This document shows positions 2,358-26,701 of a DNA stretch of 51,755 bases, piece after piece (the stretch's first letter is position 1; each line of letters opens with the position of its first letter). Below the pieces are notes generated by a model. That model was given only the letters and a program-made list of their open reading frames with translations, was not told the origin of the DNA and searched no databases. The DNA is from Clostridiales bacterium (GTDB lineage Bacteria; Bacillota; Clostridia; Saccharofermentanales; Saccharofermentanaceae). The position numbers were made by a program, and so were the translations under genes. The stretch is taken from contig JAFZWA010000020.1 in NCBI GenBank assembly GCA_017617525.1, forward strand, positions 1 to 51,755, written 5' to 3'.

Positions 2358-2792
2358 ATGGCTCGATTCATCAACAAAATGGACGCCAAAGGCAGGATCT
2401 TCATCCCGGCAAAAGTCAGGGATCAGATCGGCTCGCCCATGTTTGTCACTTTGAACCAGGACCAGGGTTACCTTAGCGTTTACTCTAAGCCGCGCTTTGA
2501 GGAGATCGTCGATCAGTTCAGTAAGATCCCGATGACCAACGCGAAGATCCGCCACGCAAGAAGACAACTTATCGGTGAGGCACTTGAATGCGAACTGGAT
2601 GGCCAGGGTCGTATTTCTGTCAGTTCCGAGCTTTGGAAGAGGATCGGAGCGGAGCCTTCGGATGAGATCTGCATCTATCAGATGGGAAGAGATGCGCTTG
2701 AGCTCTGTACGAAGAAGTACTACGACGAACTGAATGAGTCGCAGGAGCAGGAGAGCATCGATCTGGACGGCTATGAGATCACAGGACTGTAA
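2358..2792 (+). CDS. mraZ: MraZ transcriptional regulator of the dcw cluster
   Basis: A 144-residue protein, the usual MraZ size, with the two AbrB-like SpoVT half-domains. The first runs from the N-terminus (KMDAKGRIFIPAKVRDQIG) and the second from about residue 78 (ECELDGQGRISVSSELWKR); both keep the D-x-x-GR-[IF] signature. MraZ forms a ring and represses the division and wall cluster that it heads. It starts at ATG after AAAGGAGAAC. rsmH begins inside its 3' end, so translation is coupled. The GTGG boxes at 2289-2338 are its likely operator. Confidence 0.95.
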   Translation: MARFINKMDAKGRIFIPAKVRDQIGSPMFVTLNQDQGYLSVYSKPRFEEIVDQFSKIPMTNAKIRHARRQLIGEALECELDGQGRISVSSELWKRIGAEPSDEICIYQMGRDALELCTKKYYDELNESQEQESIDLDGYEITGL

Positions 2793-3750
2793 TTTCCATC
2801 ACGTACCGGTCCTTTTCGAGGAGTGCATGGAAGGCCTGTCGATCAAAAAAGACGGGATCTACGTTGACTGTACGGCCGGTGGCGGCGGACACAGCTCGGG
2901 GATCGTCGAGAGATTGGGCGATAACGGAAAGCTCATCTCGCTGGATAAAGATGATGAAGCACTGGCTGCTTGTGAGAAAAGAAGAGAGCAGCTGGACGCT
3001 GAGAATAAATGGGTACTCGTAAAGACCGATTTTTCAAGGATCGGAGAAGTGCTCGAAGAGTTGAACATTGAAAAGGTAGACGGGGTACTGGCAGATCTTG
3101 GCGTATCCTCGCATCAGATCGACACCGACGAACGTGGCTTTTCCTACATGAAGGACGGTCCGCTGGACATGCGTATGAACCGGCAACAGGAGCTTTCCGC
3201 GGAGGTCGTGGTCAATACTTATTCCGAAGCGGATCTCACTAGGATCTTTCGTGAATACGGCGAGGAAAGATACGCAGGCAGGATCGCATCGGTCATCGTT
3301 GAAAAGAGATCTGATTCTCCGATCAAGACAACGACCGAGCTTGCCGAGATCATCAGAAGCGCGATGCCCCGCGCCGCAAGAAAAGAAGATCAGCATCCGG
3401 CAAGACGGTGCTTCCAGGCGATCCGAATCGAGGTCAACAATGAACTCGGATCGGTCGAAAAGCTTCTGGATACGGTTCCCGCTCTGCTGAATGCACACGG
3501 AAGGTTCGCGGTGATCTCCTTTCACTCTCTGGAGGACAGACTGGTGAAGGAAGCTTTCCGCAAACTCGAAAACCCGTGCACATGCCCGAGAGAGTTTCCG
3601 GTATGCGTTTGCGGGAAGAAGCCGATGGGGAAACAGATCCATAGCAAACCCATCGTCGCTTCGAAAAAAGAAGCTATGGAGAATAAACGCTCGGGCTGCG
3701 CAAAGCTTCGAGTGTTCGAAAGGAATGAAGAGGTATGGCACAGGCAGTAA
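2773..3750 (+). CDS. rsmH: 16S rRNA (cytosine-1402-N4)-methyltransferase RsmH
   Basis: The SAM-dependent enzyme (MraW) that N4-methylates C1402 in the 16S rRNA decoding centre. The sequence shows HHVPVLFEE near the start, the SAM-binding VDCTAGGGGHS, the LADLGVSSHQ-D motif, FSYMKDGPLDMRM and the ISFHSLEDR motif near the C-terminus, all RsmH hallmarks. I chose ATG 2773 because it places HHVPV about ten residues in, as in relatives; an upstream in-frame ATG at 2734 would add 13 uncharacteristic residues. The start overlaps mraZ by 20 bases and the stop overlaps ftsL by 16, so this is a tightly coupled operon. At 325 residues the length is normal. Confidence 0.95.
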   Translation: MRSQDCNFHHVPVLFEECMEGLSIKKDGIYVDCTAGGGGHSSGIVERLGDNGKLISLDKDDEALAACEKRREQLDAENKWVLVKTDFSRIGEVLEELNIEKVDGVLADLGVSSHQIDTDERGFSYMKDGPLDMRMNRQQELSAEVVVNTYSEADLTRIFREYGEERYAGRIASVIVEKRSDSPIKTTTELAEIIRSAMPRAARKEDQHPARRCFQAIRIEVNNELGSVEKLLDTVPALLNAHGRFAVISFHSLEDRLVKEAFRKLENPCTCPREFPVCVCGKKPMGKQIHSKPIVASKKEAMENKRSGCAKLRVFERNEEVWHRQ

Positions 3751-6883: not shown

Positions 6884-8404
6884 ATGAAAGCAAAAGATCT
6901 TCTTAGGGAAAGTAAATACACATGGATCTGCGGGGAAGACCGTGATTTCGACGAGATCGTTCTGGACTCTCGAAAAGTCACGCCGAGCACAGCGTTTGTC
7001 GCCATGATCGGTCAGAGAGACGACGGTCACAAGCACATCGGTGACGCCGCGGCAAAGGGCGCGGCCATGATCCTCGTCGAAGAAAAAAGACTTCCCGAGA
7101 TCGAGCAGGTCCTGAAAGTCATCGAACAGTCCGGAAATACTGCCGTGATCGCAGTTGAAGATACGCGAAAAGTATACGCCGAGATGTCGGCCTGCCACTT
7201 CGGGCATCCTTCTTCCGACATGCACATCATCGGCCTTACGGGCACGAAGGGTAAGACCACTTCGACCTATATCATTCACGAGATCCTGGAAAGATCCGGA
7301 AGAAAGTGCGGATTGATCGGCACCGTTGAGAATAAGTTCGGATCGAAAGCCGTCAAATCCAAACACACCACACCGGAAGCCTGGGAATTCCAGTCGCTTC
7401 TTTCTGAGATGAAAAAGGAAGAGGTCGACTACTGCGTCATGGAGGTTTCCTCTCTGGGCCTGAAGTTTAAGAGAACCTACGGCGTAGGCTTTGATATCGG
7501 TGTGTTTACGAACTTCATGAACGATCACGTTTCCGACGGCGAGCACGAGTCGGACGAGGATTATTTCCAGAGCAAGCTCAAGCTTTTCGAGCACTGTAAG
7601 ATCGCGCTTGTCAATATCAACACCCGTCGTTTCCCGGATGTTTTGAAGTACGCGCAGGAACATACTGAAAAGTGCTACACTTATTGTGTCGACGGAAAAG
7701 CGGACTTCTATGTCCGTGACATGGCTCCGACCGTTCAGGACGGAGTTCCCGGCATGAGATTTACCTTTGTCGGACCGGATGTGGAAGAAGAACTTTTCGT
7801 GCCGCTTCTTTGCGACTTTAACGTCAATAACGCGCTCTGCGCCGCGGCGGCCGCTTATCTCGCGGGCGTTCCGATCGAGGAGATCAAATCCGGCATGGTA
7901 TTTACCCATGTTCCGGGAAGAATGGAGAAGGTCCCGAACAAGCTCGGCCTTCGCGTTTATGTCGACTATGCCCATAACGGAGACAGCTTGAGAGTACTTC
8001 TCAAGGCGATCCGTCCGGCATGCCAGGGAAGGATCATCACGCTCTTTGGCTGTGGTGGTGACCGCCCGACGGAAAGAAGATATACCATGGGTGAGATGTC
8101 CGGAAGATACAGTGACTTCACCGTGGTCACGACAGATAACTCGAGATCCGAGGATTTTTCTAGGATCTCCGGTATGATCGTCGAAGGTATCAATCGTGTC
8201 GAGGGCGCGCCTTATGTCGTTATCGAAGACAGACGAGAAGCGATCGCGCACGCTGTCGCGATGGCCAAGCCGGAAGACATCGTTGTCATCGCCGGAAAAG
8301 GACACGAGACCACCATGACGATCAAGGATTCCGTCGTGGACTTTATCGATTCGAAAGTGACCGCGGAAGTGCTGCGTGAACTTGAGAAGGAAAGAGGAGT
8401 TTAA
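6884..8404 (+). CDS. murE: UDP-MurNAc-tripeptide ligase MurE
   Basis: A 506-residue Mur ligase that adds the third amino acid to UDP-MurNAc-L-Ala-D-Glu. It shows the N-terminal UDP-binding domain (ILDSRK-type segment near residue 28), the ATP loop GTKGKTT (residues 120-126), the HTTPEAWE motif, the VDYAHNGDSL motif of the C-terminal domain and the specificity motif D418-N-S-R421. Enzymes that add meso-diaminopimelate usually have DNPR; the arginine that holds the DAP carboxylate is kept here while Pro is Ser, so meso-DAP is likely but not certain. It starts 11 bases after the PBP gene and ends 6 bases before murF. Confidence 0.93.
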   Translation: MKAKDLLRESKYTWICGEDRDFDEIVLDSRKVTPSTAFVAMIGQRDDGHKHIGDAAAKGAAMILVEEKRLPEIEQVLKVIEQSGNTAVIAVEDTRKVYAEMSACHFGHPSSDMHIIGLTGTKGKTTSTYIIHEILERSGRKCGLIGTVENKFGSKAVKSKHTTPEAWEFQSLLSEMKKEEVDYCVMEVSSLGLKFKRTYGVGFDIGVFTNFMNDHVSDGEHESDEDYFQSKLKLFEHCKIALVNINTRRFPDVLKYAQEHTEKCYTYCVDGKADFYVRDMAPTVQDGVPGMRFTFVGPDVEEELFVPLLCDFNVNNALCAAAAAYLAGVPIEEIKSGMVFTHVPGRMEKVPNKLGLRVYVDYAHNGDSLRVLLKAIRPACQGRIITLFGCGGDRPTERRYTMGEMSGRYSDFTVVTTDNSRSEDFSRISGMIVEGINRVEGAPYVVIEDRREAIAHAVAMAKPEDIVVIAGKGHETTMTIKDSVVDFIDSKVTAEVLRELEKERGV

Positions 8405-23388: not shown

Positions 23389-24054
23389 ATGCGAGTAGAG
23401 ATCCTAAGTGAAGACAGATCCGGCGGCGTTGTTCTTCAGCGTCTGACGAACTGTATCTTAAAACAATATACGCAGGATTTTGAGTCCTATCTGCGTCCTC
23501 ACAGAGGCTGCGGATACTGGCCGAGCCATCCTGACGAAAAGCCGGAGCCTTTAGCTGCCGGTCTTCTGGAGCTTCTGCCCGCAAAGCTTCGTGCGTACGA
23601 CAAAGTCTACGCCGGAACGGACATCATCGTCATCGTATGTATCGATTCCGATGACCACGATCCGGAAGAACTCATGAGCAAGCTTAAGGATACCTGTCGT
23701 CGTTACGCAAGAGACCTTTCTACCGTCATCGCGATCTCTGTCGAAGAGATGGAGAGCTGGATCCTCGCGGATAAAAACGCGATCCTTCTTGCGTATCCGG
23801 ATGCGGATCTTCAGAGGCTTTCCGAATACGAACAGGACAGCATCTGCGGCACCTGGGAAGTCCTCTGTGACGTGCTTCTTCGCGAGCAGTCGCATCGCAT
23901 CAAGAAGATCGGCTATCCCGCGATCGGCCAGTATAAGGCGACATGGGCAGAGAAGATCTCCAAATACATGCTTCCCGGAAACAACGTTTCCCCGAGCTTT
24001 AAGAAGTTCGAGCTCGCGCTGACCGGCGCGGTAAAGAAGGTGCTGAATGCCTGA
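23389..24054 (+). CDS. TOPRIM-like (DUF4276-type) partner of the ATPase
   Basis: A 221-residue soluble protein. The pattern of acidic residues fits a TOPRIM fold: E4 and E8 in VEILSED at the N-terminus, the D86-S-D88-D89 motif after a hydrophobic strand (IIVIVCIDSDD), and E119-E120-x-E122 in SVEEMESWILAD. The last two features are typical of DUF4276-type proteins, which occur beside AAA ATPases in mobile and defence contexts. It could be the nuclease effector of the module. Its stop overlaps the hemW start by 8 bases, so the pair is embedded in a housekeeping operon rather than on an obvious island. Family name is from recognition of pattern, not a search. Confidence 0.7.
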   Translation: MRVEILSEDRSGGVVLQRLTNCILKQYTQDFESYLRPHRGCGYWPSHPDEKPEPLAAGLLELLPAKLRAYDKVYAGTDIIVIVCIDSDDHDPEELMSKLKDTCRRYARDLSTVIAISVEEMESWILADKNAILLAYPDADLQRLSEYEQDSICGTWEVLCDVLLREQSHRIKKIGYPAIGQYKATWAEKISKYMLPGNNVSPSFKKFELALTGAVKKVLNA

Positions 24055-25210
24055 ACTTCCGGTTACATCCGTGTACATCCATATCCCGTTTTGCGTAAGA
24101 AAATGCGCGTACTGCGATTTCCTTTCTTTTCCGTCGTGCCTGGATCGCGTTGTCGAGTATGTTGACGCGGTCTGCAAGGAAGCGAGTCTGCCGAAGACTT
24201 GGTTTCAAAAGGAAGCCGCAGAACCGCTTCAGACGATCTATTTCGGAGGCGGTACGCCGTCGCTGCTTAGTCCTTCGCAAGTAGGGAAGATCCTCGATAC
24301 ACTTCGTGAAGAATATGGCATTTCCGAAGGCTGTGAGATCACGCTGGAAGCGAATCCCGGAACGATCGATGAAGAGAAACTTGCCGGGTTTAAAAGGGCG
24401 GGCATCAACCGCTTATCTCTCGGCATTCAGAGTCTCGATGATTCGGTGCTTCAGACGCTTGGAAGGATACATGATTCCGAGACCGCGAAAAAGGCGATCC
24501 CGGACGCAAAGAACGCGGGATTTACCAATATCTCCTGTGACATGATGCTTGGCATCCCGGGACAGACCATGGACAGCGTCAAAGAAACGCTCGATTTCTT
24601 TCTTAGAAACAGCATCCCGCACATCTCGCTTTACTCGCTGATCCTTGAAGAAGGAACACCGATGTACGCAAGATATAACGGTGATATCGAAAAGTACGTC
24701 AGCCAGGAAGAAGACCGCGCGATGTACCATCTCGTGACGAGTACTCTCAAGGAGAACGGATTTACTCATTACGAGATCAGCAACATGGCGCGCCCCGGTT
24801 TTGAGAGTCGCCATAACTCGATGTACTGGCGCGCCGAACCATACTTCGCGTTTGGTGTCGGAGCGCACTATTACATCGGAGCTGAGCGCGGCCGTCATGC
24901 CGAGACACTCGACGAATACCTCTCCGAGATGAACACTTCAGAACCAAAGAAAGAAGAAGTACTCATCACGGAAGAGATACTGTCAGAAGACGACCGCAAA
25001 AAAGAGTTCATGCTGCTCGGCTTTCGGACCAGAAGCGGCGTGGGCGAGAAGGCTTTCCAAGAGCGCTTCGGAATGCCCGTGGCAAGTGCATTTGGCGCGG
25101 AATTAGAAAAAGAAATGCATGCAGGACTCGTCGAATATTCTGACGGCATTTACCGGCTTACCGAAAAGGGCGTTGACCTTGCCAACCAAGTCTTTATGGA
25201 CTACGTCTAA
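24047..25210 (+). CDS. hemW: Radical SAM heme chaperone HemW
   Basis: A 387-residue HemN-like protein. The radical-SAM motif is C16-x3-C20-x2-C23 followed by DF (FCVRKCAYCDF), with GGGTPSLLSP and the LGIQSLDD segment typical of this group. It lacks the long N-terminal part of true coproporphyrinogen oxidase HemN and so belongs to HemW, which inserts haem into targets. The start ATG lies inside the end of the TOPRIM gene. The convergent orphan gene ends 2 bases after its stop. Confidence 0.92.
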   Translation: MPELPVTSVYIHIPFCVRKCAYCDFLSFPSCLDRVVEYVDAVCKEASLPKTWFQKEAAEPLQTIYFGGGTPSLLSPSQVGKILDTLREEYGISEGCEITLEANPGTIDEEKLAGFKRAGINRLSLGIQSLDDSVLQTLGRIHDSETAKKAIPDAKNAGFTNISCDMMLGIPGQTMDSVKETLDFFLRNSIPHISLYSLILEEGTPMYARYNGDIEKYVSQEEDRAMYHLVTSTLKENGFTHYEISNMARPGFESRHNSMYWRAEPYFAFGVGAHYYIGAERGRHAETLDEYLSEMNTSEPKKEEVLITEEILSEDDRKKEFMLLGFRTRSGVGEKAFQERFGMPVASAFGAELEKEMHAGLVEYSDGIYRLTEKGVDLANQVFMDYV

Positions 25211-25212
25211 AC

Positions 25213-25518
25213 TCAGCCGATCCTTCTCATGTGCGGCTCTTTGCACTCGTAGTCTTCCTTGCCCTCGATAAACGCCTGATAGTCGATCCTCGGGAAATCC
25301 AGTTCGCAGCCGAAAGAGAGCGACCAGAGAAATGGCGAGAGGCATCCGACGTGACCATCCGTTCCGATCCCGTAGATGTGAGAAAGAGCGGTCTTTTGAA
25401 GAGATGTATCAAACCCCTCGCTTTCCGCCTGAAGAAGAAACTGCCTTTGCAGATCTTTGTTCGCGCAGTAGATCCACGCTTTACTACTTGTTCCAAAAAC
25501 TTCTTTGAGTAAACGCAT
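25213..25518 (-). CDS. Small orphan protein under a SAM riboswitch
   Basis: A 101-residue protein read on the reverse strand, with a strong ribosome site AAGGAGGAG (25525-25533) and ATG at 25518. It has no signal peptide or membrane helix. Visible features are an N-terminal KAWIYCANKDLQRQFLLQAE stretch, three Cys (C18, C59, C71), a GTDGHVGCLSPFLWSL segment with aromatic residues, and a charged end (EGKEDYECKEPHMRR). I do not recognise a family with confidence; the lay-out of a hydrophobic strand, an acidic helix and a DG-x-VG turn recalls small hypothetical clostridial proteins. Its transcript carries its own promoter, SAM-I-type riboswitch and terminator, so expression should rise when S-adenosylmethionine is low. 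A forward reading frame over the same bases has no ribosome site and is ignored. Confidence 0.75.
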   Translation of the reverse strand: MRLLKEVFGTSSKAWIYCANKDLQRQFLLQAESEGFDTSLQKTALSHIYGIGTDGHVGCLSPFLWSLSFGCELDFPRIDYQAFIEGKEDYECKEPHMRRIG

Positions 25519-25559
25519 ATGTTACTCCTCCTTATGGTGTATTTGATCCCATAAAGAGG

Positions 25560-25590
25560 GCAAAAGAAAATCCCATCGGTACCGATGAGA
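25560..25590 (-). terminator. Riboswitch expression-platform terminator
   Basis: On the reverse strand the perfect stem CTCATCGG-TA-CCGATGGG is followed by ATTTTCTTTT. The terminator 5' arm (ATCGG) can also pair with CCGAT just inside the 3' side of P1, giving the mutually exclusive antiterminator expected of an S-box OFF switch. Confidence 0.8.
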
Positions 25591-25611
25591 CTGCTGAAGA
25601 ATAGCTATAGT

Positions 25612-25693
25612 CCTATCGGTCAAGCTTTAGCACCTTACGTATCGCAGGTTGCTGTGCGGTCATCGAGCTTGTCTCTCGCGCACTCTTTATAGG
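25612..25693 (-). ncRNA. SAM-I-clan riboswitch (S-box), P4 apparently missing
   Basis: Reading the reverse strand, P1 is CCTAT / ATAGG; P2 is GTGCG / CGCAC with a GAG / CTC upper part and the kink-turn GATGACC; the invariant ACAGCAACC follows; P3 is ACCT-GCG-ATA-CGT-AAGGT; then the signature AAGGTGCTAAAGC. The P2 loop CAAGC pairs with GCTTG after the GCTAAA segment, the expected S-box pseudoknot. There is almost no sequence between GCTTG and the 3' arm of P1, so the P4 hairpin of classical SAM-I is absent, as in the SAM-I/IV and SAM-IV variants. It should bind S-adenosylmethionine and shut off the downstream gene. Confidence 0.85.
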
Positions 25694-25701
25694 TCATCTG
25701 T

Positions 25702-25730
25702 ATTATACCACAGACTAGGGTAAAAGACAA
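25702..25730 (-). promoter_or_regulatory. Promoter of the riboswitch transcript
   Basis: On the reverse strand TTGTCT, a 17-bp spacer and TATAAT with an upstream TGG (extended -10). Transcription would begin a few bases before the aptamer P1, as usual for riboswitches. Confidence 0.8.
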
Positions 25731-25897: not shown

Positions 25898-26701
25898 ATG
25901 CTGAAAATAGGCGAATTTTCAAAACTGTCCAGAGTGAGTATAAGAATGCTTCGTCACTACGATGACTTGGGACTTCTGAAACCTGCGATGATTGATGAGT
26001 TTACGGGGTACCGCTTCTACAAAGAAGAACAGCTTTTCGTCATGGGGCGCATCACGGCGCTCAAGGATATGGGATTTGCGCTGGCTGACATCGCGAAGAT
26101 CATGGACGACTATGACAACAAAGAAAAGCTCGAGCAGTACCTTACGAAACAACAGCAGGAATTAAAGAAGATATCAGATGAGACGGAGTACAAGCTGATG
26201 CTCCTGGACACAGCCAGAAAGAGGCTGAGAAAGGAACAGAGTATGAGTTTTGATGTAACAACAAAAGTGATTCCGGAAAGATACGCGGCAACTGTACACA
26301 TGGTCGTTCCGCACTACGAGGACGAGGGCATCCTCTGGGGAAAGCTGCAGGAATGTAAGACACCTTTCGTTCCCGCGGATCCGTGTCTTGCGGCGGCGGA
26401 ATTTCTCGACAAGGAATTCAAAGAAGAGAACGTGGAGATCGTTGTATGGATGACGGTCAAGGGTGAGTACGAAGATACAGAGAACGTTAAGTTCAAGACA
26501 CTTCCTGCCGTAAAGGTCGCAAGCTGCGTGATCAAGGGTTCCTACGAGCAGATGGGAGAAGCGACTGCGACAGTCGCCTCCTGGATCGCTGAAAACGGAT
26601 TTGAGGTCACGGGACCGATGTTTAACATCTATCATGTATCTCCCGCGCAGACAAAGAATCCGGATGAGTATGTAACGGAAGTCTGCTTCCCGATCGGGTG
26701 A
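25898..26701 (+). CDS. MerR-family regulator with GyrI-like effector domain
   Basis: A 267-residue two-domain regulator. The N-terminal winged helix (MLKIGEFSKLSRVSIRMLRHYDDLGLLKP, then GYRFYKEEQL) is a clear MerR DNA-binding domain, followed by a dimerisation coiled coil to about residue 118. The C-terminal 150 residues resemble the GyrI/BmrR small-molecule-binding fold, with repeated GEY and YEQMGEATATVASWI-type segments and a conserved Glu near the end (VTEVCFPI). Such proteins respond to bulky cationic drugs and often control an efflux pump, but no pump is next to it. It starts at ATG after GGAGGTAG. A terminator follows. Confidence 0.9.
   Translation: MLKIGEFSKLSRVSIRMLRHYDDLGLLKPAMIDEFTGYRFYKEEQLFVMGRITALKDMGFALADIAKIMDDYDNKEKLEQYLTKQQQELKKISDETEYKLMLLDTARKRLRKEQSMSFDVTTKVIPERYAATVHMVVPHYEDEGILWGKLQECKTPFVPADPCLAAAEFLDKEFKEENVEIVVWMTVKGEYEDTENVKFKTLPAVKVASCVIKGSYEQMGEATATVASWIAENGFEVTGPMFNIYHVSPAQTKNPDEYVTEVCFPIG

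Follow-up and report, generated by a model that had tools for sequence, protein, structure and literature searches.

A P4-less SAM-I riboswitch paired with a small protein family in Clostridia and their phages, and its possible place in SAM and DNA-methylation economy

Metabolite riboswitches have been described chiefly from host metabolic genes. The closest described relative of the locus reported here is the SAM-I (S-box) riboswitch, Rfam family RF00162, with which it shares the P1-P3 core, the L2-J3/4 pseudoknot, the conserved core nucleotides and the terminator/antiterminator layout, whereas in the present RNA P4 is absent, P3 is short, an SD-locking hairpin is added in many members and the target is a small protein of phage type instead of a methionine or SAM gene. 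Another comparison is offered by the genus of the host itself, where a canonical S-box of the same riboswitch class precedes metK in 23 of 23 genomes (Pfam-checked in one, recognised by eye in the others), but scores 78.6-85.5 bits, has a P4 visible by eye and shows the shift in SD opening described below in none of 23 leaders. Control of both transcription and translation by a single aptamer has a precedent in the c-di-GMP-I riboswitch Bc1, a rare dual riboswitch characterized in the accessible part of that report as incoherent and unresponsive (PMC11218506), whereas in the variant leader both locks are predicted to close with ligand. Likewise, the SAM-I aptamer of the Xanthomonas campestris met operon exerts translational control, although according to the extract it does so primarily at that level and, by the title, in connection with the sensing of uncharged initiator tRNA (PMC7270179). 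Riboswitches residing within prophages are reported from C. difficile 630, where they are c-di-GMP-I switches with another ligand and control an antitoxin RNA (PMC11477304). Among the open-access papers listed, judged by title and opening of the abstract, none dealt with phage-borne SAM riboswitches or with the protein family considered here. Compared with these systems, the present switch works like SAM-I and by its core features is SAM-I, in a new variant and with a new type of target.

The window, that is, the whole 51.8-kb stretch of DNA from a clostridial gut bacterium that was analysed, had been given a first-pass annotation from its letters alone, in which a promoter, an S-box aptamer with P1-P3 and pseudoknot, a terminator and a strong ribosome site were proposed to control a 101-residue gene of no recognised function, and an Rfam covariance-model search was named as the check. 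That search returned RF00162 end to end at 25610-25695 (-), with 59.7 bits against a gathering score of 44.4 (E 2.2e-11), as the sole Rfam family above its gathering score in the whole window. The promoter and the terminator stem likewise hold up as consensus-type matches, AAGGAGG precedes the start codon of the ORF as the proposed ribosome site, and the encoded protein has no match in Pfam or NCBIfam at E <= 0.001, in keeping with its description as lacking a recognised family. The elements of the locus are these:

25702 to 25730, minus strand: sigma-70 type promoter-like element TTGTCT-17-TATAAT with TG before the -10 box (10 of 12 matches, by consensus only)
25610 to 25695, minus strand: SAM-I (S-box) aptamer with P1-P3 and L2-J3/4 pseudoknot, without P4 (RF00162 and covariation)
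25683 to 25693, minus strand: P1 5' strand and J1/2 (CCTATAAAGAG), with the anti-SD segment as a second complementary partner (duplex folding)
25609 to 25620, minus strand: region of the P1 3' strand and 5' half of the antiterminator, able to pair with the terminator 5' arm (sequence and folding)
25581 to 25592, minus strand: 5' arm of the terminator and 3' half of the antiterminator (stem search and folding)
25569 to 25592, minus strand: stem-loop resembling an intrinsic terminator, with a T-rich stretch after it (consensus-type match)
25548 to 25558, minus strand: anti-SD segment (CTCTTTATGGG), with the SD arm or the P1 5' strand as predicted partner (folding)
25527 to 25537, minus strand: SD arm (CCATAAGGAGG), sequestered in a predicted post-terminator hairpin (folding)
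25213 to 25518, minus strand: 101-aa ORF, member of the switch-linked family (ORF and homologues)
24047 to 25210, plus strand: convergent radical SAM / HemN_C ORF (HemW-like), its stop codon and the end of the switch-linked gene lying 2 nt apart
25898 to 26701, plus strand: divergent MerR regulator with GyrI-like domain, upstream of the switch-linked gene (ORF and domain match)

Two features lie beyond what the first-pass annotation had described. One is the anti-SD hairpin, together with the match between its anti-SD segment and the P1 strand; the other is the almost constant association of switch and gene at other loci.

By class, the RNA is almost certainly a SAM-I riboswitch. Across 35 aligned aptamers 97.5% of the cells in paired positions are paired and 13 of 26 pairs have changed on both sides; in the L2-J3/4 pseudoknot this holds for all four pairs, with every cell paired, and none of 500 shuffles matched these pairing and double-change values, which bears out the helices and the pseudoknot first proposed from the sequence. 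The absence of P4 noted at the outset also stands, since the stretch that should hold this helix is down to a single nucleotide in the Rfam alignment of the window aptamer, and for this reason the RNA is named a SAM-I variant. P4 is a usual SAM-I helix, and was treated as non-defining because RF00162 scores P4-less RNAs above its cut-off anyway. The accompanying suggestion of a likeness to SAM-I/IV or SAM-IV is not favoured, as RF00162 was the best-scoring match and the one retained for the switch in every Rfam scan of the window and of related loci; a lower-scoring match of the same clan, for which no name was given, was dropped in two scans of related loci. When the SAM-I conserved nucleotides listed in the available portion of PMC3764141 were placed on the variant aptamers by a mapping of our own, the equivalents of A6/U7, A87/U88, G11/A12, C44, A45, C47, G56-G58 and A61 were found invariant in 35 of 35, and the equivalent of the G43-C59 pair varied (27 GC, 5 CG, 3 AC). 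SAM would be the presumed ligand of the variant aptamer. In one phage aptamer (L072:5807-5958) the P3 loop is greatly enlarged by an insertion.

Downstream of the terminator, the leader contains a second set of competing pairings. In the window, the anti-SD segment (25558-25548) folds with the SD arm (25537-25527) into a hairpin of -17.3 kcal/mol (z -4.9) and with the 5' strand of P1 into a duplex of -18.7 kcal/mol (z -6.3). With P1 enforced, opening of the SD costs 14.3 kcal/mol, and with the antiterminator enforced the best fold pairs the P1 strand with the anti-SD segment and leaves the SD mostly free. Four or more of the six SD bases are engaged in pairs in 34 of 42 leaders, a set that includes near-duplicates and in which the SD of L093 pairs in another fold. 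A permutation of partners among 28 leaders gave a cognate anti-SD x SD pairing of -11.8 kcal/mol against -7.75 +- 0.44 kcal/mol (0/2000); here 14 leaders had been left out, comprising 10 near-duplicates and four that lack the hairpin (L044, L045, L082, L093), and the omission of these four favours the double-lock reading. Those four were retained, and only the 10 near-duplicates removed, in a set of 32 variant leaders. In this set, SD opening cost on average 7.4 kcal/mol when P1 was formed and 2.5 kcal/mol when the leader was antiterminated; the corresponding means for the 23 canonical metK leaders were 2.3 and 3.0 kcal/mol. By folding energy, this cost shifts by 3 kcal/mol or more in 22 of the 32 variant leaders and in none of the 23 canonical ones; in L082 the shift is present and the post-terminator hairpin is absent.

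From these folds, a coherent control of termination and translation is predicted with good confidence. With SAM bound, P1 would be held, the terminator would form, and any read-through transcript would have its SD locked in the hairpin; when SAM is absent, the antiterminator would take up the P1 3' strand, and the 5' strand so released would capture the anti-SD segment and expose the SD. If so, a natural leader with a single aptamer controls both termination and translation, and in the same direction. Alternatively, the hairpin could be a constant damper of translation and the match between P1 and the anti-SD segment a by-product of purine richness, which is common to the SD and J1/2, so that SAM would act through termination alone. 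This is unlikely though by no means far-fetched, given that the P1 x anti-SD pairing differs little between cognate and permuted partners (-11.86 vs -10.83 +- 0.24 kcal/mol, 0/2000, a small effect over the same 28 leaders), that the SD-open and SD-locked folds of the antiterminated window leader lie only 0.3 kcal/mol apart (-56.8 vs -56.5 kcal/mol), and that the shift is missing in 10 of 32 leaders (L044, L045, L058, L072, L076, L090, L091, L093, L097, L098). Against it stand the P1 x anti-SD duplex, whose mean z is -3.3 across the 42 leaders (related, near-duplicates included), and the 23 canonical controls, none of which shift. Predicted double locking is the preferred reading of the leader.

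The gene had initially been regarded as a stand-alone orphan, and a survey of leaders upstream of its homologues had been proposed. Carried out from the protein side, this survey shows that the 101-aa protein is no isolated orphan but belongs to a small protein family found in both Clostridia and phages, and that the pairing of the family gene with the switch is near certain, the switch being located ahead of the gene at 33 of 34 testable loci, with protein identities down to about 24%. Neither of the two outcomes that the first-pass annotation had named as refuting it, namely no hit to a SAM-clan model or homologues always lacking the leader, was therefore observed. Among 148 genomes (relatives and the window's own), the gene is present in 11, all within one genus, in which it occurs in 11 of 23 genomes, some of them incomplete; RF00162 lies upstream at all 11 loci, one aptamer being truncated by a contig end. 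In a class sample it was found in 7 of 391 genomes, its own among them, with the switch at all six others. Among viral contigs and phage records, the switch precedes both of two homologues at 24% identity, both new homologues from another protein query, a homologue in Ruminococcus phage NatCom_28274, and 11 of 12 viral homologues from a further query, the 12th being cut at a contig end. The exception, G184, carries the family gene without a switch at E 0.5 (Rfam) or E 1 (R1, a covariance model of the variant), and a phylum sample of 398 genomes returned only G325, which had been counted already. The tally of 34 thus comprises 11 genus loci (own included), two, one, two new out of three, six from the class, the 11 of 12 and G184; repeat records (L014, L015, L071, L113), G120 with the gene at a contig edge, L112 with a cut gene and the non-family G160 were left out of it. 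Five of the records from that further query (L101, L102, L103, L109, L110) were counted as protein-first though found earlier from the RNA side, and the 11 of 12 are to be read with the knowledge that their query came from the RNA-first set, that several of the contigs are near-identical and that R1, by which they were scored, had been built partly from the same aptamers. In NatCom_28274 an annotated 105-bp CDS (L074:7789-7893; PV036439.1 44010-44114) overlaps the riboswitch match at 7824-7947 and is probably spurious.

Concerning the protein itself, none of 26 family members matches Pfam, PHROGs or PADLOC at E <= 0.001, the best sub-threshold matches being one member each for Pfam (E 0.006) and PHROG (E 0.0073). 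Searches of PDB sequences gave nothing usable for the function of the family; profile matches to phosphoserine aminotransferase (E 0.25) involve the same single short stretch as the order-level hit G160, which lies in a 366-aa ORF that resembles phosphoserine aminotransferase by eye and was rejected as a member. AlphaFold2 modelled a phage member as a confident compact fold (pLDDT 89.9, pTM 0.82) and the window protein as a fair one (pLDDT 79.0, pTM 0.71), in the order strand, helix, two strands, helix, strand, helix. Foldseek and VIA-align searches with these models gave no clear PDB structure among the matches listed, and the best viral structural match listed (E 0.01) was to a functionally uncharacterized Leuconostoc phage protein. 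The idea that the family might be a DNA-mimic anti-restriction protein was rejected on a pI range of 5.0-9.5 and charges from -7.0 to +5.6 among the 26 members.

The viral setting of the family is rich in enzymes that make or spend SAM. Of 26 gene-bearing viral records, 22 were tested (excluding L092, L104, L107, L112), and a C5 DNA-methyltransferase domain is found in 16 and a SAM-synthetase N-domain in 8, as against 7 and 0 in a control of 50 viral contigs, each 20 kb or longer; the lack of host matching in this control is the main weakness of the association. Restricted to gene-bearing records of at least 20 kb, the counts are 14 of 17 and 7 of 17. When these are grouped by DNA similarity into six lineages, a grouping of our own, C5 occurs in 5 of 6 (p 0.0011) and SAM synthetase in 3 of 6 (p 0.0007), both against the same host-unmatched control, with one of the five C5 lineages depending on L084, whose C5 match contains stops. 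The phages in which the gene adjoins a methyltransferase form one related group, in which the family gene stands alone on the strand opposite to its neighbours and converges on a large gene for a C5 methyltransferase, after which comes a ParB-N/N6-N4 methylase gene (Pfam checks in L086, L101 and L078); a complete SAM synthetase belongs to this neighbourhood in L086. In the 152-kb record L057, a C5 match in pieces and a SAM-synthetase match are no more than about 4 kb apart and some 34 kb from the family gene. Where the switch precedes another gene, C5 domains were found in 0 of 5 records and SAM synthetase in 2 of 5 (L079, L093), which indicates that SAM synthetase does not track the family gene alone. 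R1, which favours the variant aptamer, detected no switch at the phage SAM-synthetase genes of L144-L147 and L284, and in L086 only that of the family gene. The original suggestion that the gene acts in SAM or methyl metabolism gains indirect support from these associations.

The recurrence of the switch-gene pair in phages, many of which carry DNA-methylating enzymes, makes it probable that the gene answers to SAM shortage. Our best overall explanation, favoured with reasonable but far from firm confidence, is that a P4-less, phage-borne SAM-I switch silences a small gene of SAM or DNA-methylation economy until SAM falls. While SAM is plentiful the gene would be kept silent, and as SAM declines it would be opened, so that the protein is made when a phage or host spending SAM on DNA methylation runs short; it would then spare SAM, raise SAM, or substitute for the missing methylation. 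Such a role of the protein in SAM or methylation economy has about an even chance. The unit of switch and gene would be phage-borne, and by eye it occupies several different chromosomal sites at ten loci of the window's genus; most likely it is made at SAM shortage and has repeatedly been captured by hosts. No phage genes, and no DNA-methylation gene adjoining the family gene, were recognised by eye in these ten neighbourhoods. A bolder version, which must be regarded as tentative, would have the phages of gut Clostridia carry a SAM gauge, in which a coherent two-level SAM-I switch, acting by termination and SD locking, turns on its dedicated protein as phage DNA methylation uses up SAM, in one economy with the phage C5 methyltransferase and SAM synthetase, and which hosts have captured as a responder to SAM depletion. 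The near-obligate pair of SAM riboswitch and protein, common to phages and hosts and more frequent in phages with DNA-methyltransferase genes, would be a viral metabolite sensor bound to the contest over DNA methylation, and it makes an unannotated family directly testable.

A more conventional view holds that the gene is a plain member of the S-box regulon with a host role in methionine, cysteine or SAM metabolism, for instance as an enzyme regulator or uptake accessory, and that phages acquired their copies from hosts. The extracts of the literature are in line with it, as S-boxes of C. difficile are said there to precede only methionine or SAM genes (PMC11477304) and novel genes behind SAM switches have been assigned to methionine and SAM metabolism (PMC3766115), and the canonical S-box before metK throughout the genus likewise fits such a regulon. 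However, the gene is found in just 11 of the 23 genus genomes, incomplete ones included, and at several chromosomal sites, and it is rare in the class and repeated in phage contigs, which renders this view unlikely.

Survey from the RNA side leads to a different alternative. The aptamer-core pattern alone retrieved 19 viral contigs (near-identical pairs L076/L084, L080/L087 and L086/L092 included), in 14 of which the next gene is a family member, as judged by translations and alignments, and in the remaining five of which it is unrelated. In the class, the R1 matches listed comprise 23 at 72.7-104.5 bits, the next scoring 63.9; besides the window's own, 6 of the 22 precede a clear family member and 15 precede unrelated genes, including two metK genes, and the gene behind L131 is by eye a remote-looking member. 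A second, short S-box occurs in 13 of the 23 genus genomes, before the family gene in 11 and before other genes in 2. Thus, with 33 of 34 pairs on the protein side but the aptamer also before other genes, the protein nearly requires the switch and the switch does not require the protein. It could therefore be argued that a mobile leader cassette, made up of promoter, switch and hairpin, silences whatever cargo it precedes in well-fed cells, the work of the protein being unrelated to SAM. Besides a leader type common to unrelated genes, it may be cited for this that otherwise unlike phage contigs share about 83-200 bp of similar DNA and that in the six pairs checked the similarity falls on the leader. 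Against mere hitch-hiking stand the persistence of the pair at nearly all testable loci down to about 24% protein identity and the enrichment of C5 methyltransferase and SAM synthetase in the gene-bearing viral records, and we consider it quite improbable.

Least of all do the data favour a SAM-depletion alarm, that is, a factor for defence or superinfection exclusion that would be turned on as an incoming phage drains SAM, a reading that is very unlikely because, although SAM is the sole recognised input and the gene stands alone on the opposite strand in several phages (L077, L086, L101, L105, L106, L108, L111), it is co-directional with its neighbours in L057, L058, L072 and L073, no member matches PADLOC (0/26) and no defence neighbours were recognised by eye.

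Several of the loci retrieved with the switch or the gene deserve mention in their own right. The two metK genes behind a P4-less variant aptamer (L133, Pfam-checked, and L136) mark a possible origin of the phage leader. N-formylglutamate amidohydrolase, an unusual S-box target, follows the variant switch (near 1501) in L121 and L135 (Pfam FGase) and, by eye, in L130, and an ADP-ribosylglycohydrolase gene lies under a variant switch in L127 (Pfam-checked). Genes of the latter type are also found close to the family gene in three genomes (L051:4227-5522, L053:3664-4269 and L068:1870-2640; Pfam-checked in L051, by eye in the others). Small proteins unrecognised by eye directly follow a SAM-I switch in the class loci L119 and L124, L125 and L126, and L138, L141 and L142. 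Within the genus, the second SAM-I switch of G007 (L044:3305-3409 (-)) precedes an 81-aa HTH_3 protein at 2997-3242 (-), and that of G010 (L045:3511-3597 (-)) a 303-aa ORF at 2518-3429 (-) with a weak Sel1 match. Finally, a small, glycine-rich, membrane-like ORF was seen by eye behind the family gene at two distant loci, L080:3853-4080 and the ORF downstream in L131.
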